Shown here one piece after another: positions 20,391 to 38,313 of a DNA stretch of 38,313 nucleotides. Location of the stretch: positions 1 to 38,313 of the IMG/VR virus record IMGVR_UViG_3300045947_000165, one strand, 5' to 3'. The notes beneath the pieces were generated by a model that saw nothing but the letters and a program-made list of their open reading frames with translations, searched no databases and was not told the origin of the DNA. This DNA is from a virus. The position numbers were made by a program, and so were the translations under genes. How positions within the stretch are numbered: the first letter of the stretch is position 1; each line of letters opens with the position of its first letter.

Positions 20391-20990
20391 CTAGCTACAT
20401 TCTGCGATACCTATCGGACCCCGGAGACTGCTTAACTCCGCTCTCCACTCCTCGGCCGACATGACCCCCTTACCCCGGTTGCAAGAGACGCATGCCGTGG
20501 TGAGATTGTCCGCCGTAGTCGTCCCGCCGCAGCTCCGAGCGATGACGTGATCGACGTGAAGCGCGACGTCCGGACTCGCGGCTCCACAATACTGGCAGGT
20601 GAAGTGATCTCTCTGGAGCACGAAGAAGCGGAGTTTCGGCTCGACGAAGGGCTTCCGGTCCACAGGATAGATCGACTGCCGCTGGCGACGCTCCGAGTAG
20701 GGCATCTCCCCAATGCGTATCCGGCTCACCGGATGAAGTGGGAGAACGGGTGATCCCGTTGAGCGAAGCCAGCCTTTTCGCCAGAGAGCGTCGACGTGAG
20801 TCTGGCAGCCTCGCGGCGAGAGGTTGAGGCGCTTGGCGATGTAGGCCCTGGTACACCCCTCCCCCAGCTTCGCCAGATAGTCCGCGGCGAGCGTGTAGAC
20901 CTCAGCCTGTCGAGCGGTGAGGACTCTGGGGTTGTCGATCGGTGGAGGGGATTCCGGCGCCCTCGGTTCTGGCCAGATCACCGAGAACAC
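20391..20990 (-). CDS. Winged-helix plus HNH endonuclease (homing-type)
   Basis: A 199-residue protein with GTG start at 20990, overlapping the upstream gene by 13 nt. Residues 25-90 (LTARQAEVYTLAADYLAKL; RAYIAKRLNLSPRGCQTHVD) form a LexA-like winged helix. Residues 120-175 carry an HNH domain: FFVLQRDHFTCQYCG, HVDHVIARSCGGT, NLTTACVSCNRGKG, including two CxxC pairs. It sits between portal-associated genes and the capsid fusion, so it interrupts the head module, as homing endonucleases do. A packaging-associated HNH is the alternative, but those usually lie beside the terminase. Confidence 0.88.
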   Translation of the reverse strand: MFSVIWPEPRAPESPPPIDNPRVLTARQAEVYTLAADYLAKLGEGCTRAYIAKRLNLSPRGCQTHVDALWRKGWLRSTGSPVLPLHPVSRIRIGEMPYSERRQRQSIYPVDRKPFVEPKLRFFVLQRDHFTCQYCGAASPDVALHVDHVIARSCGGTTTADNLTTACVSCNRGKGVMSAEEWRAELSSLRGPIGIAECS

Positions 20991-23075: not shown

Positions 23076-23204
23076 CAGGCGCCGGCGCGAGACCTGGAGC
23101 GGCGAGTGGCGTTGGCCACGTCGACTCCATCGGCACCAACGCCGCGTTGCGGGGCGTCTGGGGTTGCCAGGGTTGCCCCTAGGTTGGCTGATTTTACTAC
23201 GAGA
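23076..23204. other. Intergenic spacer upstream of gpW
   Basis: 129 bases, one of the few larger gaps. It holds two copies of GGGTTGCC (about 23161-23178) and a short AT-rich patch (GATTTTACTAC, 23190-23200). A promoter for gpW-portal is possible but I cannot point to a convincing -35/-10 pair. Confidence 0.35.
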
Positions 23205-23645: not shown

Positions 23646-25528
23646 GCCGTGATCTCAGCCGCCTCCGCGTCTGGCACCTCGTCGTCGTAGACCTCCGGCT
23701 CGAGGTCCACCGGCTTGCCAACCGCGGCCTCGAGCGCGAGCCAATCGGACTCCGCGAAGCGGTCGAGGCCGACGACGGCCGCGGCCGCGCGCGAGTACCC
23801 GCGGGCGTCGAGCCAATCGTTGCGCCGGTTGGGGATGAGCGCCCACTCGAGCCTCACGAAGCCGCGGCGATTCTTCACCGCCACGAGATGCTCGGCCGTC
23901 AGCTCGCGGAAGTACTCCTCGGCCAACTCGGGGAAGTGCAGGAACCCGGGCGGGTACCCCTCGCCGCTCGTCGGCATCGGCAGCGACAGCCAGCCGTACA
24001 GCTCGCTCTTCGCCACGTGGCCGCACACGGGCCAGACGCGGTACGCCCCCTTGAGCTTGCGGCCGCGTCGGCTCATCTCCACCGGGGTCGGCGGGCTCAC
24101 CAGCACGTGCCCCGACTCCTGGCCCTTGATGGCGATCACGCGATTCATCGGGTAGCGTCGCGCCCACGCGTAGACGGTCTGCGTGTTGTAGCCGCTGTCG
24201 ACGGCCAGCATCTCGATCCGCAGGTCCACGCCGTAGACGTGGCGGAACGGGCGCGCGAGGAGCGCGTCGAGCTTCACCCACGGTCCGCGCTCGAGGTCCG
24301 ACGTGTCCCCCGGCATCGCGCCCGCGTCGATCACCCACGATTCCTTGCCGCGGCCCCAGCCATCGACGTGGTACTTCAGGAGATCCTTCTGCACGTCGAC
24401 GCCGCACGTGAGGAACAGCACGCCGGGCGGGCACGTCCCGATCGCGTACGGCTCGCGCCGCGCGTGCAGGCGCTCCCAGTCGGGCGCGTCGCCCCGGTGC
24501 TTCCACGGACGGCCAAGGATCGTGTTGACTGCCGTCTTGTGCGTGTCCGGGCCCCCACGGACGGCGGCCACGTACTGCGCGGCGATGGCTCCCCACGTGA
24601 CCTGCGGCAGGTACGAGTACGCCGCCCAGATGGAGAACGATCGGTGTCGGTTGCTCTCCGTGAAATGCTCCGGCTTCTCGGGCCGCCACTCCCCTGCGGC
24701 GTCCATGTCGCGCAACTGCCGATGCGTGATCGTGCAGCCCCGATCGACGCAGACGAACACGGCCGCCTCCGGCTTGCCTTCGGGCCATCGTAGGTGCTCG
24801 AACTCGAGCGGCTGGTAGTACCCGCACGCGGGGCACGGCAGATAGCGCCGGCGCTGGTCGCCGGCCTCGTACAGCTCGACGATCTTACTGTGCCCTTCGA
24901 GGCGCGGCGTGGACCCGGCCACGATCTTGCGATTCCAGAACGCGTCCGAGCGTCGCATCGCCAGCGCGATCGGGTCGCCCTGGTCGCCGGCGCTGACGGG
25001 ATACTCGTCGGGTTCCTCGAAGGCGATGACCCGACGTGAGATGCGGCGGAATCCGCGCGGGCTATTCGCGCCCACGAGCGACAGGTTGCCGCCGCGGAAC
25101 GCCTTGAACAGGATGGCGTTGTCGGCCGTCCGCGACTTGGGGTCCGCCACCAGGCCCCGTAGGGCCGGCAAGCCGGAGAGCAGCGGCGCGATTTCTTCTT
25201 TGCTGTACTTCTCCGCGTCGTCGATGGCCGGCTGGACGACCAGGATCCGGCACGGGTCGTGCGCGATGTAGAACGCTAGCGTGATCTGCACGAGCTTGGA
25301 CCACCCGACCTGGGTGCTCTTGAGCACCGAGACGCGCTCCACGGTCGGGTCGCCCATCGCGTCGAGAATCTCGCGCTGGTAGGGGTGCGTGACCCAGCGG
25401 CCGGCCTCCGCGTCGCCGGCCGGCAACCGGAAATGCTCGTCCGCCCACGCCGACAGGCTCACCCGCAGCGGCGGGCGCCAGATTGCGCGCAGGCGCTCAT
25501 CGCGCAGCGCCAGCGCGGCCGGCGTCAC
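23642..25528 (-). CDS. terL: Terminase large subunit (lambda GpA family)
   Basis: 628 residues, GTG start at 25528 overlapping the TerS stop (GTGA). The ATPase domain shows a Walker A-like LKSTQVGWSK (69-78) and Walker B-like RVIAFEEPDEYP (166-177), then KIVAGSTPRLEG as coupling motif. A zinc site (CPAC at 232-235 and CVDRGC about 259-264) follows, as in GpA proteins. The nuclease domain has the expected acidic residues in CGVDVQKD, LAVDSGYNTQTV and NDWLDARGYSR. The enzyme cuts concatemers and pumps DNA into the head. GpA-type terminases usually act on cos sites, which supports cos packaging. Confidence 0.95.
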   Translation of the reverse strand: MTPAALALRDERLRAIWRPPLRVSLSAWADEHFRLPAGDAEAGRWVTHPYQREILDAMGDPTVERVSVLKSTQVGWSKLVQITLAFYIAHDPCRILVVQPAIDDAEKYSKEEIAPLLSGLPALRGLVADPKSRTADNAILFKAFRGGNLSLVGANSPRGFRRISRRVIAFEEPDEYPVSAGDQGDPIALAMRRSDAFWNRKIVAGSTPRLEGHSKIVELYEAGDQRRRYLPCPACGYYQPLEFEHLRWPEGKPEAAVFVCVDRGCTITHRQLRDMDAAGEWRPEKPEHFTESNRHRSFSIWAAYSYLPQVTWGAIAAQYVAAVRGGPDTHKTAVNTILGRPWKHRGDAPDWERLHARREPYAIGTCPPGVLFLTCGVDVQKDLLKYHVDGWGRGKESWVIDAGAMPGDTSDLERGPWVKLDALLARPFRHVYGVDLRIEMLAVDSGYNTQTVYAWARRYPMNRVIAIKGQESGHVLVSPPTPVEMSRRGRKLKGAYRVWPVCGHVAKSELYGWLSLPMPTSGEGYPPGFLHFPELAEEYFRELTAEHLVAVKNRRGFVRLEWALIPNRRNDWLDARGYSRAAAAVVGLDRFAESDWLALEAAVGKPVDLEPEVYDDEVPDAEAAEITA

Positions 25529-26115
25529 TCGTCGTCCTCCAGCCCCGCGCCGGCCAGCTCGTCCAGGGCTTCGCGGATCACGGCGTCGATGGCGGCGAGC
25601 GTCACGGCGTCGAGCTCCGGCGCCACCCGCTTGATGCGACTCGGGAGCCCCAGCAGGCGATTCTTGGCGAGGCTGATCCGCTCGGCCTCCTGGCGCTCAG
25701 CCACGTCCGCCCGGATCAGTAGGCCCTCGCGCTCGTCGTTCGCGAGCTTGAGCTTGCGCTGCCGCTCCCGCTCGATGGCCCGCCTGATGTCCGCGATGAC
25801 CAGCAGATCCCTCGTCGCCGGGCGCGGATCCTTCGCGTGATCTCGGTTCCGCCGCCATTCCTGGACGCCGAGGGCGACGTCGGCGATCACGACGCGCCCC
25901 TTGTCGTCGCGCCCGAGACTCTGCTCGAGCCGGCCGTTCCGGATGCCCTTTCGCACGGCCGCTGTGTCGACGCCGACCCGTCGCGCGAACGCAGTGACGC
26001 CGAGCCGCTCCGTGGCCCTAGGATCGACGATCGCGCGTTTCCGGCCCCCTTGTCGGTTATGCAAGGTCCTCCCCCATCGGTCGCACAGTGGACCCGTGGA
26101 TTCCACCTGCGGCAA
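25525..26115 (-). CDS. terS: Terminase small subunit
   Basis: Up to 196 residues; start uncertain. The longest form begins at TTG 26115; a TTG at 26064 has GGGGAGG just 3 nt before it and could be the true start. Residues about 38-95 form a helix-turn-helix (GVTAFARRVGVDTAAVRKGI, then a strand pair), as in Nu1-type DNA-recognition subunits. A charged helix (RRAIERERQRKLKLANDERE) and a helical C-terminus follow, suited to oligomerisation and TerL binding. Its stop overlaps the TerL start. It would recognise the cos region just upstream. Confidence 0.85.
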   Translation of the reverse strand: MPQVESTGPLCDRWGRTLHNRQGGRKRAIVDPRATERLGVTAFARRVGVDTAAVRKGIRNGRLEQSLGRDDKGRVVIADVALGVQEWRRNRDHAKDPRPATRDLLVIADIRRAIERERQRKLKLANDEREGLLIRADVAERQEAERISLAKNRLLGLPSRIKRVAPELDAVTLAAIDAVIREALDELAGAGLEDDE

Positions 26116-26187
26116 AACGCGGATCGGGCCCGACGCGTCCCGCGACGGGGATGCGACGGAAGAACCTATGCCGCCCCCCTATGCACT
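26116..26187. other. Candidate cos/TerS-binding region
   Basis: Seventy-two bases between the replication initiator and TerS, the usual place for cos in lambda-type packaging. The 7-mer CCTATGC occurs twice on the plus strand (26165-26171 and 26178-26184), separated by a CG-rich run. On the minus strand this gives GGGCGGC, the same as the first seven bases of the lambda cos overhang, possibly by chance. No cutting site can be proved from sequence. Confidence 0.35.
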
Positions 26188-26907
26188 TCATACGATCGCC
26201 CCTCGATGCACCGCGCACTGCTTCGGCGTTCCGTCTCGCTTCGAGGGAAACGGCTCGCCGGGATGCTCGGCCACCCACGACGACCTGACGCACTGGTACT
26301 CACGCCAGGCCGGGTCGAGGCAGTCACGGTTGAACATCTCGGCGGGCCAGCGGCCGTTGATCAGGCGGCCGTTCTGACTGCTGTTGCTCGAAGGGCCTTC
26401 GAAGACCCTTCCGGGGGGTATCGTTCTCGTACTCGTACTACTACTCGGAGGGGATGGGTCTTCCAAGGGCCTTCCGAGGGCCTTCGGAGGGCCATCGAAG
26501 GGCCTCTCTATTCGGTAGTAATCACAGAACCTTGCGACGATTTGTAGTCTCGGCAGGCTCGCGACCGCCCTTTCGACGCTCTTCATGTGCTTCTTGTCCG
26601 CCAGTCGGATGTTCGGGTCATGCCGGAGGCCGTTGCGGACCCACACGACGGGCCCCTCGCGGAAGATCCACGGGGCCTCCGAGCTCGGGGAGCGCTCCAG
26701 CTCCGCGAGGGTGGCGTCGAGGATCTCGTTCGTGAGGCCGGTCTGGGATCGGAGGACCTCGGGGTAGTACCGGAAGATCGAAGCGGCGGAGTTCTGAGCA
26801 CACAGCCGGAGCGTGACGAGGGTGAGCCGCGCGTAGGGAGTGAGCTGCTGGTAGTCCAGGTCGTCGAACAGCTTGCTGAACACGCCGCGGTAGGTGCCGC
26901 CCGCCAT
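26188..26907 (-). CDS. Replication initiator (lambda O-like, winged helix) with internal iterons
   Basis: 239 residues from ATG 26907, with GGAGG 9 nt upstream; a GTG at 26913 is an alternative. Residues 8-115 (YRGVFSKLFDDLDYQQLTPY; SQTGLTNEILDATLAEL; VVWVRNGLRHDPNI) resemble the winged-helix replisome organiser domain of phage initiators. Residues 135-180 are a low-complexity Pro/Ser linker, and the DNA coding it contains 11-bp tandem repeats. The C-terminal 60 residues include two cysteines and WREYQCVRSSWVAEH, possibly the helicase-contact domain. It lies just downstream of dnaB. Known lambda O proteins bind iterons inside their own gene and load DnaB. Confidence 0.72.
   Translation of the reverse strand: MAGGTYRGVFSKLFDDLDYQQLTPYARLTLVTLRLCAQNSAASIFRYYPEVLRSQTGLTNEILDATLAELERSPSSEAPWIFREGPVVWVRNGLRHDPNIRLADKKHMKSVERAVASLPRLQIVARFCDYYRIERPFDGPPKALGRPLEDPSPPSSSTSTRTIPPGRVFEGPSSNSSQNGRLINGRWPAEMFNRDCLDPAWREYQCVRSSWVAEHPGEPFPSKRDGTPKQCAVHRGAIV
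26387..26504. repeat. 11-bp iteron array, predicted replication origin
   Basis: On the plus strand four 11-mers stand in exact tandem at 26461-26504: TTCCAAGGGCC, TTCCGAGGGCC, TTCGGAGGGCC, ATCGAAGGGCC. A second cluster lies at 26387-26419 (CTCGAAGGGCC, TTCGAAGACCC and a weak third). Between them is a TAC/TCG-rich, less GC-rich stretch (26420-26449). Consensus TTCSRAGGGCC. Because 11 is not a multiple of 3, the encoded protein is not repeated, so selection acts on DNA. Spacing near one helical turn fits initiator binding sites. Confidence 0.7.
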
Positions 26908-26909
26908 GG

Positions 26910-28292
26910 TCACCGTCCTCCGTCCAGCACCCATGTCGGCTGGGGTGGCGCTTCATCCGGAATCGTGAACTTCACGAACGCGGGCTCGAAGTCAAGCAGC
27001 AGCGGCGCGCCACCGCCTTCCCCGTCCCGCACCTTGGCGAAGATCAGCTCGCGCTCGGATTGCTCGGTGTCCGGCCAGTGAAGGATGAGCACCGCATCCG
27101 AATCGGCCTCGACGTCCCCGGACTCCTTGAGCTTGTCCATGCCCGGGCGTTCGACCTTCTTCCCTTTGTCCTGATAGAGCCGCGTCAACGACGACAGGGC
27201 GATCACGGAGCAGCCCTCACGCCACGACGCCAAGCGCTTGAGCCCGGCACTCACGGCGCTCACCTCCAGCCGCCGGTCGCGGTGCTCGGGAGCGCGAAGG
27301 AGCTGGAGGTAGTCGACGATGACGAGGCGGTACGCACGCTCGCGCAGACGCCGGCGGAGCCCATTGAGCGTGGGCTTGCTGTCGTCAATCCACAGCGGGA
27401 GGTCCTCGAGCCGATCCATCGCACCGAGGAGCTTCGGCCAGTCGTGCGGGTCCACGTCACGCCGACGGAGAGAGGTCGCACTCGTCCTCGTCTGCTGGGC
27501 GAGGATGCGTCGCCCGATGGCCGCGGCGTTCATCTCCTGGGACACGAGCAGCACCGACTGGCCACGCTGCGCGACGTGAATCGCCCACTGCACGATGAGC
27601 GCTGACTTGGCCACCCCAGGGCGGCCCCCGAGCGTGAGCATCTCGCCTCGGAGCAGCCCGCCGCCCAGGCGATCGTTCACGCCGTGATGGGGACACGTGA
27701 CGAAGTCGGATTCCGGCGTGTCCAGGGCCTCAAGAATCGACCGCAGCACCTGCCTCACCGGTTTCGGTGGCTCGCCGTGCCGCCCCTTCTCACGCAGCGC
27801 CTCGCCGTCCGTGCGCTCCGCGATCTGCGTCAGCGCGTCGGTGACCGACGTGGCGAGCTCGGCGGGCGCCGTGCCGTCGTAGGCGGCCTGGAGCGCCTGG
27901 GTCAGGACCTGGATGTCCCGGCGCGCGCCGGCATGCACGAGAATGATCCGGAGGTAGTCGTCAACGAGGCTGGGGATGGCCCCCTGCTCCACGAGGAGCG
28001 CGAGCGCGGCGGGCCCACCGGCGGCCTCCAGCTCGTGGCTGGCGCGCAGCGCATCGGTCAACGTGATGAGCCCCACGCTTGACTGGGCCTCGTGGAGGTC
28101 CAGCATCCGGCGGTAGATCGTCCGGTGCGCCTCCGTGTAGAAGTCCTCGGGCTCGAGCTTCACGGCCGCGCGCTCGAGGATGGCGGCCTCGAGGAGGCAG
28201 CCGCCCAGGACGGCGGCCTCGGCCGCGAGGTCGTGCGGCGGGATCCGGTTCGGGATCTCGGCAGGAATGGTCGTCGTCCTCGTCCTACTCAC
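26910..28292 (-). CDS. dnaB: Replicative DNA helicase DnaB-like
   Basis: 460 residues from GTG 28292. The N-terminal helical domain (IPPHDLAAEAAVLGGCLLEA, then YTEAHRTIYRRMLDL) is typical DnaB. The RecA-like core has Walker A GRPGVAKS (223-230), Walker B RLVIVDYLQLL (322-332), and the LKESGDVEADSDAVLIL motif with the arginine-finger region later. The Walker A differs from the usual GxGK: alanine replaces the glycine before lysine. It unwinds DNA at the fork and is presumably loaded by the initiator encoded immediately downstream. The start overlaps the end of a short upstream frame by 8 nt. Confidence 0.92.
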   Translation of the reverse strand: MSRTRTTTIPAEIPNRIPPHDLAAEAAVLGGCLLEAAILERAAVKLEPEDFYTEAHRTIYRRMLDLHEAQSSVGLITLTDALRASHELEAAGGPAALALLVEQGAIPSLVDDYLRIILVHAGARRDIQVLTQALQAAYDGTAPAELATSVTDALTQIAERTDGEALREKGRHGEPPKPVRQVLRSILEALDTPESDFVTCPHHGVNDRLGGGLLRGEMLTLGGRPGVAKSALIVQWAIHVAQRGQSVLLVSQEMNAAAIGRRILAQQTRTSATSLRRRDVDPHDWPKLLGAMDRLEDLPLWIDDSKPTLNGLRRRLRERAYRLVIVDYLQLLRAPEHRDRRLEVSAVSAGLKRLASWREGCSVIALSSLTRLYQDKGKKVERPGMDKLKESGDVEADSDAVLILHWPDTEQSERELIFAKVRDGEGGGAPLLLDFEPAFVKFTIPDEAPPQPTWVLDGGR

Positions 28293-28383
28293 TTCCCGCC
28301 AGGGATGGGATGACCTCAATAAGCACACGGCCCGGAGCGGCTGACCGCAACGAGGCATTCAGGTCGTCGATCGGGCGGCTCAT
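28285..28383 (-). CDS. Possible 32-residue protein before dnaB
   Basis: ATG 28383 opens MSRPIDDLNASLRSAAPGRV and ends LAGSE, its TAG overlapping the dnaB start. It runs in another frame inside the ATPase remnant, so one of the two is probably not real. The clean link to dnaB slightly favours it. No function can be suggested. Confidence 0.35.
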   Translation of the reverse strand: MSRPIDDLNASLRSAAPGRVLIEVIPSLAGSE

Positions 28384-28459
28384 AGGTCTGCGTGACCGCG
28401 TCGTCGGGCAGGATGAAGTCCGGCGAGATCTTGAGATGTCGAGACGCCGCGGTCGTCAC
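28316..28459 (-). pseudogene. Truncated remnant of a HerA-like (DUF87) ATPase gene
   Basis: A GTG-started frame of 47 residues. Its first part, RHLKISPDFILPDDAVTQTY, matches my memory of the N-terminus of HerA/DUF87-type phage and plasmid ATPases, in which the Walker A loop follows within about ten residues. Here the sequence breaks off at that point and continues with EPPDRRPECLVAV and an early stop; no P-loop or ATPase core follows. The best reading is a deletion that removed nearly the whole gene and joined its start to the dnaB leader. An unrelated small gene is the alternative. Confidence 0.5.
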
Positions 28460-28533
28460 GTTTCGCCCTCGCTTCGTCGGTGATGTCCCGCCGCGCCAGA
28501 TGCCAGCCCGACGCGGCGGGTGTGGTAGTGCTG

Positions 28534-30421: not shown

Positions 30422-30663
30422 GCCGCCTCTGGCCCCCCTGCGGTCCCTGGGCGTCCCTGGGCGCGTTTTGTCGCCTGAGCCCGTGCCGAGGCCTCCCGGC
30501 GCGCCGATCGTGTCTCCACGGGTGTCGCGCGGCACAGGGCGCAGATCCAGCCTGGCCCCGGCGGCTCGGCCAGCGTCGGGTACTTGACCTCGCCGCAGAC
30601 CGAGCGCGTGGCGACGTAGGTCTGGCCGTGGCCCTGGCACTGACATCTAGGACATGTGGGCAT
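30418..30663 (-). CDS. Small zinc-ribbon protein
   Basis: 81 residues, ATG 30663, overlapping the HNH gene end by 17 nt. Cysteine pairs CPRC (4,7) and CALC (41,44) with GHGQTYVATRSV between form a ribbon. The C-terminal half is Arg/Ala-rich and disordered. Its start region resembles the 11-codon frame just beyond the HNH gene (both read CPRCxCQG). Confidence 0.7.
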   Translation of the reverse strand: MPTCPRCQCQGHGQTYVATRSVCGEVKYPTLAEPPGPGWICALCRATPVETRSARREASARAQATKRAQGRPGTAGGPEAA

Positions 30664-31039
30664 CGCGTCGCCTCTCGTTCTCGCAGGTCAGGCAATACCG
30701 CTGACGGCGCTTCCGGTTGTACGCATGGCCGCGCGGGCACGTCGTCTTGGCCGCGTTGATGGAATTCACTGTATGGGGCGACCGTCGTAAGTTTTCCCGC
30801 GTGGTCACAGGCTCAAGATGTGACGGGTTGACGCAGGCCCGCTCTCGGCAGAGGTGGTCTATGCTTAGGCCGGCCGGGATCGGCCCTCTGGCCAGCTCGT
30901 AGGCGAACCGATGGGCCTGGACATAACGTCCTTCAACCCAGAACTGCCCGTACCCGTTTTCCTTGATGACTGAGTTCCAGAGCCAGCAGGCGCCGTCGCG
31001 GTCAACCTTCATCCAGAAGCGGACATCGGGGCGCATCAT
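30647..31039 (-). CDS. HNH homing-type endonuclease
   Basis: 130 residues from ATG 31039 (TGATG junction). Motifs: CWLWNSVIKENGYGQF, AHRFAYELARGPIPAGL, SIDHLCRERACVNPSHLEPV, then a zinc pair CPRGHAYNRKRRQRYCLTC. This is the classic HNH family of phage homing endonucleases (NUMOD-free form). It closely resembles the gene at 35502-35954, so the two are paralogues. It is inserted between the DksA-like gene and a small zinc gene. Confidence 0.92.
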   Translation of the reverse strand: MMRPDVRFWMKVDRDGACWLWNSVIKENGYGQFWVEGRYVQAHRFAYELARGPIPAGLSIDHLCRERACVNPSHLEPVTTRENLRRSPHTVNSINAAKTTCPRGHAYNRKRRQRYCLTCENERRRDAHMS

Positions 31040-31074
31040 CAACCCTGGCAGCCGCAGCGCGGGCAGGCTTTCAT
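31039..31074 (-). CDS. Very short cysteine-rich frame (11 residues)
   Basis: ATG 31074 overlaps the DksA-like stop (ATGA); the 11-residue product MKACPRCGCQG stops as the HNH gene begins. It is either a tiny coupling peptide or the broken start of a zinc-ribbon gene cut by HNH insertion, since the next downstream gene starts MPTCPRCQCQG. Codons differ between the two, so a recent duplication is unlikely. Confidence 0.35.
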   Translation of the reverse strand: MKACPRCGCQG

Positions 31075-31547
31075 GGCCATTCCTCCCCTGGGTCGTTTGC
31101 CGCCGGGAACCCAGCGAGCTCGTCCACCGGCGCATCCTCGAGCACGGGCTCGGCGATCTTCCTCGGCCGACCACGTGGGCGACGGATCTCCGGCGCGGCC
31201 GCGTAGGCAGCCCGGCGCGCCGCCACCTCATCCTGCGTCGCGCAGGCGACGCAGGTCGGAGCCCAGGGGTATGCGACGAGACGCCGGTCCGCGATCGGCT
31301 CCCCACACGAGGTGCAGGTGCCCCACGTCCCGTCGTCGAGCCGCCCGAATGCCTCTCGGATCTGCCGCACGCGATCGAGGAGCACCTCGCGATGCTGCGC
31401 GGTCACCTCGGCGTCCTGGCTGCTGGCCACCGCGTCCATGTCGGGGTCCGAGCCGCCGGGATGCGCCAGCGCGTCCCCGTCGCGGCGCTGGAGGCGCGCG
31501 AGGTCCTCGTCGAGCTGGCGGTGGAGGGCCACGCGGATCGGGTTCAC
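31071..31547 (-). CDS. DksA/TraR-type zinc-finger protein
   Basis: 158 residues, GTG start at 31547 overlapping the upstream stop (GTGA). A helical N-terminal part (RVALHRQLDEDLARLQ; EVLLDRVRQIREAFGRLDDG) precedes the family zinc finger WGTCTSCGEPIADRRLVAYP...CVAC, cysteines 78, 81, 99, 102. The C-terminus has an AT-hook-like RRPRGRPRK. Family members bind the RNA polymerase secondary channel and alter transcription; here it may redirect host polymerase. The AT-hook-like tail hints at added DNA contact. Confidence 0.85.
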   Translation of the reverse strand: MNPIRVALHRQLDEDLARLQRRDGDALAHPGGSDPDMDAVASSQDAEVTAQHREVLLDRVRQIREAFGRLDDGTWGTCTSCGEPIADRRLVAYPWAPTCVACATQDEVAARRAAYAAAPEIRRPRGRPRKIAEPVLEDAPVDELAGFPAANDPGEEWP

Positions 31548-34978: not shown

Positions 34979-35526
34979 GCGGCCCTCCGCCCTGGTTGGG
35001 CGCGATAGACGACGATGGCCGCGAGAGCGACCTGTGTCGCGGCGGCCAGGTCGACCTCGGTGAAGCGATACGTGGCGTCATCTCGTAGTTCGAGAATTGC
35101 GCCGACGCTGACGGGTTCGTCGGGGTGCTCGTGGTTGTACGCGAGCACGTAGAGAGCGATCTGGTACTCCGCGCCGTCAGTGCCGCCGGACTTGAAGTCG
35201 ATGATGCAGCGGTGCCCATTGATCCAGCCAAGCCGGTCGGGGTGACCGATGAACTTCCACGCAGCATGGCGGACCTCGAACTCGGTCAGGACGGGCTCAT
35301 GGCCTGAGTCCGCGACAAACTTCCGGTAAGCGTCGAGGCGCGGCGCGAGCTCAGGCGTCACGTCCGCCTCGTCGAGATAGCCGTAATGCTCGGCCTCCAG
35401 GAGCGCGTGAAGCCTTGAGCCTCGGTCACGAGCGAGTTCGACGACGTCGGGGCGGACCAGGGTGAAGTCGGGTCCGAGGCCAACCGCCGACAGAATCGTC
35501 GTTACACGCGGGTACGTCGCGCCCAT
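34975..35526 (-). CDS. RecB/Cas4-fold (PD-(D/E)XK) phage exonuclease
   Basis: 183 residues, ATG 35526, overlapping the HNH gene end by 25 nt. Catalytic pattern of the PDDEXK family: His40 in GSRLHALLE, Glu82/84 region EFEVRHAAWKFIG, Asp97 in GHPDRLG, Asp110-x-Lys112 in IIDFKSG, then Gln122 and Tyr126 in AEYQIALYVLAY. This matches RecB-like and Cas4-like nucleases used as lambda Exo-type partners of annealing proteins. It would resect DNA ends to give ssDNA for the annealing protein encoded two genes upstream. Confidence 0.87.
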   Translation of the reverse strand: MGATYPRVTTILSAVGLGPDFTLVRPDVVELARDRGSRLHALLEAEHYGYLDEADVTPELAPRLDAYRKFVADSGHEPVLTEFEVRHAAWKFIGHPDRLGWINGHRCIIDFKSGGTDGAEYQIALYVLAYNHEHPDEPVSVGAILELRDDATYRFTEVDLAAATQVALAAIVVYRAQPGRRAA

Positions 35527-35954
35527 CCCACCGTCTTCCTCAGATTGATGCAGCGCCGACAGGAGCGCTTCCCGTTTGACCGGACCTTGATGTTCTCGGC
35601 GGTCAGATCGTGGCCGCGTTGGCAGCGCCCCTCCCGCGCAGTCCGCGTTGATGGACTGCTACCGCGTCCTGTGTTGACCGCTGGCGACACCGGCTCCAAG
35701 TGCGCCGGATTCACGCACTGGCGAACACGACACAGGTGGTCCACCTGGAGGCCGACGGGAACCGGACCGACGAGCAGCTTGTAGGCAACGCGATGTGCGT
35801 AGGACATCGCCCGGGAATCTGATAGCAGCGAACCCGTCCGGATCGTCCCGTAGCCGTTTGGCTGAATATGACCAACCCACAGCCAGCAGCCGGTGTTCGG
35901 CTCGGGCTCGACCTTCGATTCCCAGCGTTCCAGCAGCGGAAGCGCCACGCTCAC
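35502..35954 (-). CDS. HNH homing-type endonuclease (paralogue of 30647-31039)
   Basis: 150 residues from GTG 35954, which overlaps the annealing-protein stop (GTGA). It shows CWLWVGHIQPNGYGTI, AHRVAYKLLVGPVPVGLQ, VDHLCRVRQCVNPAHLEPVS and a zinc pair CQRGHDLTAE...CRRC. It is clearly related to the HNH gene 4.5 kb downstream. Its place between annealing protein and exonuclease splits what is normally a linked recombination pair. Confidence 0.9.
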   Translation of the reverse strand: MSVALPLLERWESKVEPEPNTGCWLWVGHIQPNGYGTIRTGSLLSDSRAMSYAHRVAYKLLVGPVPVGLQVDHLCRVRQCVNPAHLEPVSPAVNTGRGSSPSTRTAREGRCQRGHDLTAENIKVRSNGKRSCRRCINLRKTVGWARRTRV

Positions 35955-36931
35955 GCCAGCGTGCCCTGCTGCTGGCCGGGCTTGCTCAGCCCCTTGTCCG
36001 GCCCCTGCTTGAGCTTCTCGCACAGCGTCTCGTAGTCCTTGATCTTGACGTCCCGAGGCGAGTTGTACTGGTATCCCGACAGCAGCTCGTGCAGCTGGTC
36101 GTCGGACCACTTGGTGCCGGTCGCGATGGCCCGGAGCCGCTTGTGCTGATTCTCGTTGATGACGATGTCGGGATCGGTCCGGTGCTCCTGCTGCGGAACC
36201 CCCTGCCCGCGCGACGACGGTGCTTCACGCCTCGACGGTCGATCCTCGTCCTCGTCGTCGCGGTCCCGCTCGTCCTTGTCGTCGACGTCCTGCGTGAAGA
36301 TCTCGGACGCGGCTGTCACGTTCAGCACCGCGGCGACGAGCGCGCGCTTGTTGGACATCTTCAGGACGGTGTTGTGCGTGTCGGGCAGGTCGGGGTTCGC
36401 GACGCGCTGCTCCGTCTGCTGCTGCTCGATCGCGTCGTCGCCGTCCTTGAACTTGGCCCCGCAGCCGCCGCGCTTGCCGAAGCACAGCCAGCCGCCGCCG
36501 AACTCGGCCTTGCCCTTGATGATGGTGTCTTCCTTGCCGCACGAGGGGCACGTGCGCCCGGAGCGCCGGTAGGCGTACTTCGCCTCCCGCGTCGAACACG
36601 AGCCCATCCCCGACCCCATCCGCTGCCCGGTCGGGATGTGCCAGAGCGTGCACGTGCTGCGCACGATCAGGTGGTCCCCGTCCCGGATCTCCTCGGTGCC
36701 GTACTGCGGGTCGAGCCGGAAGAGCATGTTCAGTAGCTCGGCGCCCGGCTTGTAGAGCGTCGGCTTCTTCGTCCCGGGGATCACGCCGAAGTGCGTCTCC
36801 GGCTTCATGAGCTTCGCCATGACCTCGTGGATCTTCTTGACCTGGCCGGCCAGCTCCTCGACGGTCAGCTCGTGGCGGTACGCGAGGGCGATGGCGCCCT
36901 GCTGAGTCTCGTGCTGATGAACGACCGACAT
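35951..36931 (-). CDS. Putative single-strand annealing recombination protein with zinc ribbon
   Basis: 326 residues, ATG 36931, GGAGG 7 nt upstream. The N-terminal core KPETHFGVIPGTKKPTLYKP then GAELLNMLFRLDPQYG recurs in phage recombination loci. Residues 128-157 insert a zinc ribbon (CPSC, then C150, C157). The acidic Asp/Glu/Arg linker (215-240) leads to a C-terminal helical domain (NENQHKRLRAIATGTKWSDD, ETLCEKLK) like that at the end of RecT/Erf/Rad52-like annealing proteins. Next to a RecB-like exonuclease, strand annealing is the best guess; an ssDNA-binding protein is the alternative. Confidence 0.65.
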   Translation of the reverse strand: MSVVHQHETQQGAIALAYRHELTVEELAGQVKKIHEVMAKLMKPETHFGVIPGTKKPTLYKPGAELLNMLFRLDPQYGTEEIRDGDHLIVRSTCTLWHIPTGQRMGSGMGSCSTREAKYAYRRSGRTCPSCGKEDTIIKGKAEFGGGWLCFGKRGGCGAKFKDGDDAIEQQQTEQRVANPDLPDTHNTVLKMSNKRALVAAVLNVTAASEIFTQDVDDKDERDRDDEDEDRPSRREAPSSRGQGVPQQEHRTDPDIVINENQHKRLRAIATGTKWSDDQLHELLSGYQYNSPRDVKIKDYETLCEKLKQGPDKGLSKPGQQQGTLA

Positions 36932-36933
36932 GT

Positions 36934-37182
36934 TCAATCCTCCATTCGGATACTGTGGCACTCGCCCGCCACCGCCCCCACCGTCGCCCCCGACACCGCG
37001 CGCATCAGCTCCGAGACCGTGGCCAGCACGCAGGCTTGAGAGCACAACGTCCGGGCTGTGAACGCCTCACGCTTGTCGCCATTGACCAGCGTCAGCACCA
37101 GGCGCGTCTCGTACCGCTTGGCGTGCTCGGGAATGATCGAGTGGCACGTCGGAACGTCGCAGCGGATCACCGTGTCGATCAC
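36934..37182 (-). CDS. Small zinc-binding protein
   Basis: 82 residues, ATG 37182 overlapping the HNH-AP2 stop. Cysteines 8, 13, 47 and 51 (RCDVPTC, CSQAC) could bind one zinc ion, flanking a beta hairpin (RYETRLVLTLVNGDKREAF). Ends 2 nt before the annealing-protein start, so the two are probably co-translated. No known family. Confidence 0.65.
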   Translation of the reverse strand: MIDTVIRCDVPTCHSIIPEHAKRYETRLVLTLVNGDKREAFTARTLCSQACVLATVSELMRAVSGATVGAVAGECHSIRMED

Positions 37183-37802
37183 GCCGAAGCCTCCTCCACC
37201 TCGTTGAGTCTGGCGAACTCACCGCGCAGCTCCGAGGCGGCGCGGTTGTATGCGATGGCGGCTAGCTCCTCTGAGTCGAACCGGCCGAGGGACTTGTTCC
37301 GTCCGTCCACCCAGATCGAGGCTACCCAGCGCCCATCGAAGTGGACCCCGCGGAACCGGGATTGACGTCGCCGCCGGTTCGCATTCCAGTTCCACGCGTT
37401 CTGGGCGGCCGTGCATGGCCTCAGGTTCGCGCGACGGTTGTTGAGGCCGTCCCCGTCGCGGTGATCGATCTGGGTCGCGACGTCGGACAAGATGAATCGG
37501 TGCATGTACCTGAGGTCTCTGCGGTCCTCTATCCGAGCGACGGCGTACCAGGCGTTATTCCTCCTGACGGCAGCCCAGCGATACGCGCACACGCGCTCGT
37601 GGTCGTCGCGGTCTACGATGGCCGAGCGCCCGTGGTTCAGCGGAATCCTGACGCCCTCGGTCGCGAAGAGGCACCGGCAAGGGCGCGGTGGCCGGATGGC
37701 GCCTGGCCGGCAGCCCTTGCAGTGTTCCGCGTAGCGGCGTCGGTGGCGGCTCCCGCATGACGGGCAGGAGCGGGTTGGGAGCGGGACCCACCGCCCGCCC
37801 AT
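37179..37802 (-). CDS. HNH-AP2 homing endonuclease with N-terminal zinc finger
   Basis: 207 residues from ATG 37802 (ATGA overlap). Residues 13-43 carry CPSC, CKGC and CRC motifs, a zinc site. The HNH core lies at 100-140: YMHRFILSDVATQIDHRDGD, then NNRRANLRPC. Residues 148-200 are an AP2 DNA-binding domain: SRFRGVHFDGRWVASIWVDG, RNKSLGRFDSEELAAIAYNR. This HNH-AP2 fusion is a well-known homing endonuclease architecture in phages. It is inserted in the early small-gene cluster. Confidence 0.92.
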   Translation of the reverse strand: MGGRWVPLPTRSCPSCGSRHRRRYAEHCKGCRPGAIRPPRPCRCLFATEGVRIPLNHGRSAIVDRDDHERVCAYRWAAVRRNNAWYAVARIEDRRDLRYMHRFILSDVATQIDHRDGDGLNNRRANLRPCTAAQNAWNWNANRRRRQSRFRGVHFDGRWVASIWVDGRNKSLGRFDSEELAAIAYNRAASELRGEFARLNEVEEASA

Positions 37803-37972
37803 CACCTCGCCTCCTTCGGCGGCCGCAACGAGCCGGGACACGTGCTCGACTGCCACCCGTGCTCGCCGTGGTGTCGGATCTCGCCCGCCTTCGTGATCGC
37901 GTAGTCTCGTCCGCACGCGGAGCAGATGCCGCGTGGCGACTTCGAAACGCCGGGCGCGTTGACGACGCTCAT
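37802..37972 (-). CDS. Small C2HC-type zinc protein
   Basis: 56 residues, ATG 37972 overlapping the upstream stop. The pattern CSACGRDYAITKAGEIRHHG then CPGS gives Cys17, Cys20, histidines 34-35/38 and Cys45, a compact zinc finger common among phage small proteins. Function unknown; DNA- or RNA-binding expected. A longer N-terminal form is not supported. Confidence 0.72.
   Translation of the reverse strand: MSVVNAPGVSKSPRGICSACGRDYAITKAGEIRHHGEHGWQSSTCPGSLRPPKEAR

Positions 37973-38058: not shown

Positions 38059-38313
<255 letters not shown>

Follow-up and report, generated by a model that had tools for sequence, protein, structure and literature searches.

What keeps a series of 11-bp DNA repeats within a gene whose protein sequence does not repeat? 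This question is raised by a gene beside dnaB in an IMG/VR virus record of 38 kb, the whole of which was analysed here (the window). The initial annotation, made from the sequence alone, had proposed that the repeats form a lambda-style origin inside the initiator gene. We consider it likely that positions 26387-26547 are indeed a replication origin, lying in the linker-coding DNA of its own initiator and bound by the product of that gene, as with lambda O.

A putative initiator gene lies next to dnaB

The genes of the window include a GpA-type terminase, a portal, an integrase and RusA, annotated on the minus strand, and at least four HNH endonuclease genes were present in the 38 kb (20391-20990, 30647-31306, 35502-36110 and 37179-37916). 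The very end of the record (38133-38313) is made of twenty copies of the 9-mer GGCGGCGCG with 89% matches, which may be a repeat in coding sequence or an artefact at the end of the assembly.

The putative replication initiator gene is an open frame at 26188-26934 (minus strand; 248 aa counted from the ATG at 26934). It lies directly downstream of a DnaB-like replicative helicase gene (26910-28358, minus strand; PF03796 DnaB_C, E 8e-44; PF00772 DnaB, E 1e-23; phrog_19, E 1e-64), which is therefore its upstream neighbour, in line with the adjacency first noted. Judged by sequence comparison, the ATG at 26907 is more likely to be the start codon than that at 26934, because it matches the first Met of the homologue described below and comes after the dnaB stop. 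The window initiator (P0001) matched no Pfam or PHROGs family and no PDB sequence; its homologue (P0004) matches the phrog_270 profile, which P0001 does not. With no Pfam and no PDB sequence match, membership of RepA_N was not found for P0001. Neither P0001 nor P0004 matched Phage_rep_O (PF04492), against which lambda O itself scores E 6e-36.

AF2 models built on two sequences gave the element order H-E-H-H-E-E in residues 33-100, with a pLDDT of about 50-70 in the domain. This is consistent, at low confidence, with the winged-helix N-terminus that had been suggested from the sequence, and a disordered linker is predicted after this domain, the linker being encoded by the repeat DNA. Foldseek searches with these low-confidence models returned winged helices resembling MarR, as well as 4pt7, 4pql and 5kbj, whose titles name an initiator, a DNA-binding-protein N-terminal domain and a Rep-DNA complex; all were found only at E about 1, which gives a lead and no evidence of homology to these entries.

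The repeats exceed what the protein needs

Cluster 1 (26450-26504, minus strand; core GGCCC) comprises five abutting 11-bp units of the form GRCCC-N6 at 26494-26504, 26483-26493, 26472-26482, 26461-26471 and 26450-26460. On the coding (minus) strand, from 26504 down to 26450, they read GGCCCTTCGAT GGCCCTCCGAA GGCCCTCGGAA GGCCCTTGGAA GACCCATCCCC. The four close units at 26461-26504 stand exactly where the initial annotation had placed them, and to these we add the fifth, degenerate unit at 26450-26460. Cluster 2 (26387-26411, minus strand) holds GAAGGGTCTTCGAAGGCCCTTC at 26390-26411, an imperfect palindrome, GGGTC-TTCGAA-GGCCC, with the layout GGGTC-N6-GGCCC. One strand of it can fold into a hairpin (z -2.65). 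Repeat units are thus present in this second cluster as first described, but they form an inverted pair and not a second direct array. Both clusters were detected by TRF, and both sit in the linker-coding part of the initiator gene, about 430-550 nt inside the gene. An RNA element was also considered and set aside, with no Rfam match in 25000-28500.

The paired motif GGCCCN6GGCCC was found three times in the window, each time at the array, against 0.31 expected, a count reached in 0/100 shuffles. At lag 11, 29/33 bases of cluster 1 match. When codons were exchanged between synonymous sites of this gene, no more than 26 matches arose in 2000 permutations; 2000 random recodings with synonymous codons, following the phage's codon usage, gave no more than 23, so that neither control reached 29/33 once. 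With any lag from 7 to 30 allowed, the best of 500 synonymous recodings had 24 matches. The repeated sites therefore go beyond the needs of the protein, and the protein itself (P0001: FDGPPKALGRPLEDP) does not repeat, as had been claimed.

A homologue keeps the DNA pattern in other reading frames

The collections contained one independent close homologue, with 51% aa identity over residues 14-151 of the window protein. It is represented by two records (L002 and L003), and a further record, L001, is identical in sequence to the window. A single close homologue thus stands behind the close-range comparison, which counts against reading the locus as an origin. No relatives were found in the genome contigs collection or among named phages searched with the window protein, and a protein match in L004 was rejected as spurious. 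The homologue matches phrog_270 'replication initiation protein' (E 6e-16, residues 52-253), and P0001 is related to this phrog_270 member via its N-terminal half, without the C-terminal domain. That domain is common to P0004 and other initiators, and its absence from the window protein, like the lack of any family match for that protein and the low confidence of the AF2 models, also counts against an origin at this site. The C-terminal part of the window initiator (26188-26346) is unrelated to that of the homologue, a difference due to domain loss or replacement.

The linker peptide of L002 differs from that of the window. The DNA at the same place reads GGCCCTTGCAA GGCCCATCGAA GACC, and a second cluster, GGGCC-TTCGCG-GACCC, was found at the place equivalent to cluster 2. 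When a weight matrix trained only on the window units was run over 14 kb of the relative's contig (about 28,000 sites), the two highest scores fell on the two tandem units of L002. The first unit has an identical codon phase in the two genes. In the window the shared words GAAGACCMATCC and GAAGGGYCTTCG are in codon phases 1 and 2, respectively, and in L002 both are in phase 3, a shift that arises because the two arrays differ by two 11-bp units. The GGCCC cores are retained while the spacers diverge. By themselves, the three L002 units make a weak tandem repeat, with a score that about 1% of shuffles reach. The same units are thus found with a different peptide and in other reading frames, and therefore selection appears to act on DNA; the DNA pattern, not the peptide, appears to be conserved between the window and its homologue.

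The view that the pattern is kept for DNA reasons, put forward at the outset, is thus supported by both the shuffles and the homologue. The same linker without 11-bp periodicity had been named as the case that would speak against it, and the homologue shows the opposite, a different linker peptide with the periodicity kept. The 11-mer consensus given in the initial annotation, with one mismatch allowed, is less specific (8 matches versus 3.9 expected) than GGCCCN6GGCCC. Across the collection, the 11-mer pair was found, apart from the window's phage and the relative, only in L009, by chance inside a portal-like gene, and in L011, an unrelated phage in which the pair is intergenic; neither was retained as a related case. 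The intergenic region of L011 (34-660, IMGVR_UViG_2645727571_000003) carries a five-unit 11-bp CCCCTTCGAAG array and the further repeat families CTCGCGA, CGTCACG and TTACCGGTAA within 650 bp, and may be another origin.

In the relative the initiator has a PrimPol-DnaB neighbour, so that the helicase type differs from that of the window, and the small terminase, behind an HNH gene, belongs to another family (phrog_83/Terminase_4). Since both terminase and helicase are different in the homologue, the repeats travel with the initiator. This bears on whether the repeats could be a packaging site (cosB/pac) bound by the small terminase. Lambda gpNu1 binds R sites next to its own gene, and lambda cosB consists of repeated sites bound by a winged-helix protein, which would suit such a site here: a small terminase gene (25525-26115; phrog_57, E 2e-16), which starts about 270 bp from the repeats, and a GpA-type terL lie directly downstream. 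Nevertheless, the relative has kept iterons and initiator with a small terminase from another family, and many phages have repeats of this layout in initiator genes that are flanked, as annotated, by replication genes and no terminases. Packaging is therefore a very improbable function for these repeats.

The least stable DNA of the window borders cluster 1

Across the 38 kb of the window, the 25-, 30-, 40- and 50-mers with the lowest nearest-neighbour stability all start at 26503-26508. A candidate DNA-unwinding stretch (26503-26547) therefore abuts cluster 1, where such an element would be expected. A short-repeat tract of low stability also lies between the clusters (26413-26449; coding strand TCCGAGTAGTAGTACGAGTACGAGAACGATACCCCCC); these 37 bp are rich in TAG/GAG/TAC triplets and, among some 38,000 positions, take ranks between 8 (30-mer) and 41 (40-mer) for low stability. 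The less GC-rich stretch that had been noted between the clusters is real (57% GC at 26412-26455 versus 68%), although the weakest duplex is found beyond cluster 1. In the relative, at 70% GC, the equivalents of both tracts are among the weakest loci of 14 kb: that of 26413-26449, a GATACC/TACTAC tract, is the second weakest, and that of 26503-26547 is the third weakest 40-mer locus.

On the coding (minus) strand between the clusters, 26420-26446 consists of nine NAN triplets in a row (GAG TAG TAG TAC GAG ...). The consensus of the DnaA-trio is 5'-TAG-3' (PMC8287927), but we rejected a DnaA-trio here as a resemblance only, since the triplets are absent in the relative and no DnaA box (TTWTNCACA) was found in the window. 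The initial annotation had also suggested looking for a GC-skew switch; none was seen at the site, and the cumulative maximum is at 23175, so that the skew lends no support to an origin here.

The coupling to weak duplex helps to decide on another role, in which the repeats would bind the initiator for autoregulation or copy-number control, by handcuffing or as an intragenic operator, with no origin involved. Handcuffing, copy-number and operator roles are all possible for plasmid iterons, and cluster 2 is an operator-like palindrome. However, the site lies far inside the gene and not at a promoter, and in both phages it goes together with duplex that is the weakest, or nearly so; an operator has no need of this. 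We regard this role as very improbable.

Repeats one or two helical turns apart recur in phage initiators

We assembled initiators from named phages that share the C-terminal domain of P0004 (F..FW..YPRK...PATWLNG.RW). The linker DNA of JBD68 gp54 has 22-bp GGGGTGCAA repeats, that of Marchesin has 22-bp GGGGTGMAC and 11-bp GAACCGTCC repeats, and MR13, Catfish and Mova show 11-bp steps. Because these repeats were chosen by eye, a motif-free test was used, in which exact 7-mers repeated at each lag were compared with synonymous shuffles. It replaced a first k-mer statistic (k 8-10, one mismatch), which was too blunt: the relative and Catfish were missed, lambda O was half-detected (3/60 shuffles reach it) and one near-positive came from a GC-rich terL piece.

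In 14 known-phage initiators, with the window and its relative left out, there were 14 repeats at lag 11 and 16 at lag 22, against 1.3 expected for each, and next-door control genes gave 0 and 1, respectively. For a second set, made up of 52 non-redundant initiators taken from viral contigs, the z scores were 10.8 at lag 22, 10.2 at lag 23 and 7.1 at lag 11; this set includes a few relatives of the 14 (e.g. L050, L065), so that the two are not fully independent. No excess was observed in 51 control ORFs. Repeats 11 or 22-23 bp apart were present in 33/52 of the non-redundant genes (8.7 expected), and 43 of the 59 repeat matches were located 50-150 bp before the C-terminal domain. Tandem 11-bp units like those of the window were found in L094 and L061. 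N-terminal domains vary across the family (HTH_36, DUF1376 or none known). The idea that the window has a new kind of iteron is not supported, as phage initiators often contain in-gene repeats that are spaced by 11 or 22 bp and unrelated in sequence. In a literature search with partial coverage, we found no paper describing helical phasing of in-gene repeats as a class in phage initiators.

Among the initiator genes with this C-terminal domain (L023, L024, L026, L027, L033-L046 and L050-L129), linker repeats are common whatever the N-terminal domain; in many, the repeats run on into a short strand-biased tract (AACCA, GAACC, GGAACAG or GAGACA). In L035, L039 and L042, initiators with in-gene repeats have an N-terminal DUF1376 (PF07120), which suggests that DUF1376 is an iteron-binding domain.

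These comparisons also bear on a neutral minisatellite, in which slippage produced the 11-bp duplications in a permissive disordered linker and the DNA binds nothing. The linker is indeed predicted to be disordered, its peptide is free to change, and the relative differs by two 11-bp units. Yet the GGCCC cores persist despite diverged spacers, and the gene for a protein of 51% identity retains the pattern, its inverted second cluster and the weak tract, with the DNA read in other frames. Lags 11 and 22-23 are, moreover, favoured in unrelated initiators and absent from control ORFs. Neutral slippage is thus the most improbable account that we weighed.

A proposed origin and its mode of action

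A replication origin at 26387-26547 is likely for several reasons. The array exceeds all protein-preserving shuffles, and the homologue keeps the units in place across a change of frame. The array borders the weakest duplex of the window and, in the relative, duplex that is nearly the weakest. DnaB adjoins the initiator in the window and PrimPol-DnaB in the relative, whose initiator belongs to phrog_270. Finally, many phage initiators have the same architecture, and the lambda iterons lie in the middle of O.

We infer that the protein binds the repeats, opens the DNA and recruits DnaB. The N-terminal winged-helix-like domain would bind the GRCCC cores, which, one helical turn (11 bp) apart, would point to the same side of the helix. 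Cooperative assembly of a nucleoprotein complex could then strain the adjoining weak duplex at 26503-26547 and 26413-26449, and the DnaB-like helicase from the adjacent gene would be loaded on the opened strands.

On a broader reading, for and against which we see the case as evenly balanced, phage initiators form a large modular class with cognate iterons in their linkers, in which specificity and origin are swapped as a cassette and of which the window has a stripped-down version. Such a class would span N-terminal domains that are unrelated to one another (HTH_36, DUF1376 and that of the window, which is unclassified) with a phasing of one or two helical turns. Without the C-terminal domain, the window protein would hand over DnaB in another way. 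If this reading is true, DUF1376 would be an iteron-binding domain. The way in which N-terminal domains pair with iterons hints at a function for uncharacterised domains of this sort. The locus offers a candidate pair of origin and initiator for an uncultured GC-rich phage, and suggests that many phage origins may be locatable from sequence alone by repeats 11 or 22-23 bp apart in an initiator linker. The frame-shifted conservation is, in addition, a clean case of coding DNA retained for a DNA role.

Comparison with known systems

In lambda, the iterons lie in the middle of the O gene, so that the origin is inside the gene (PMC7466680). The window resembles lambda O and ori-lambda in having iterons in the middle of an initiator gene, beside a weak (in lambda, AT-rich) tract and with a helicase-loading gene adjacent. 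In contrast to the four annotated 18-bp iterons of lambda, 20-24 bp start to start, the window has 11-bp units with no spacer, of another and GC-rich sequence. Its neighbour is the helicase itself, with no P-like loader, and its protein lacks a match to Phage_rep_O.

Initiators of the phrog_270 type (Pseudomonas JBD68 and MR13, Arthrobacter Marchesin, Azospirillum Cd and others) likewise have linker repeats 11 or 22-23 bp apart, followed by a short-repeat tract, and in several a helicase or loader is adjacent. They differ in the conserved C-terminal domain missing from the window protein and in their unrelated iteron sequences, and the N-terminal domain of the window matches none of HTH_36, DUF1376 and Phage_rep_O. 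Repeats inside an O-like gene have already been reported for Pseudomonas phage MD8 (PMC8508860).

Origin repeats also lie within the initiator gene in SPP1 gp38/oriL (PMC6316719) and in RepA_N plasmids such as pSK41, where Rep uses a winged-helix N-terminal domain to bind the repeats, and the origin DNA codes for its linker domain (PMC5703833); neither initiator has a detectable sequence relation to the window protein. An iteron origin inside a gene is therefore a known kind. Going by sequence comparison, what appears to be novel in the window is the iteron sequence, the spacerless units of one helical turn, an N-terminal domain outside Pfam and PHROGs and the loss of the C-terminal domain.
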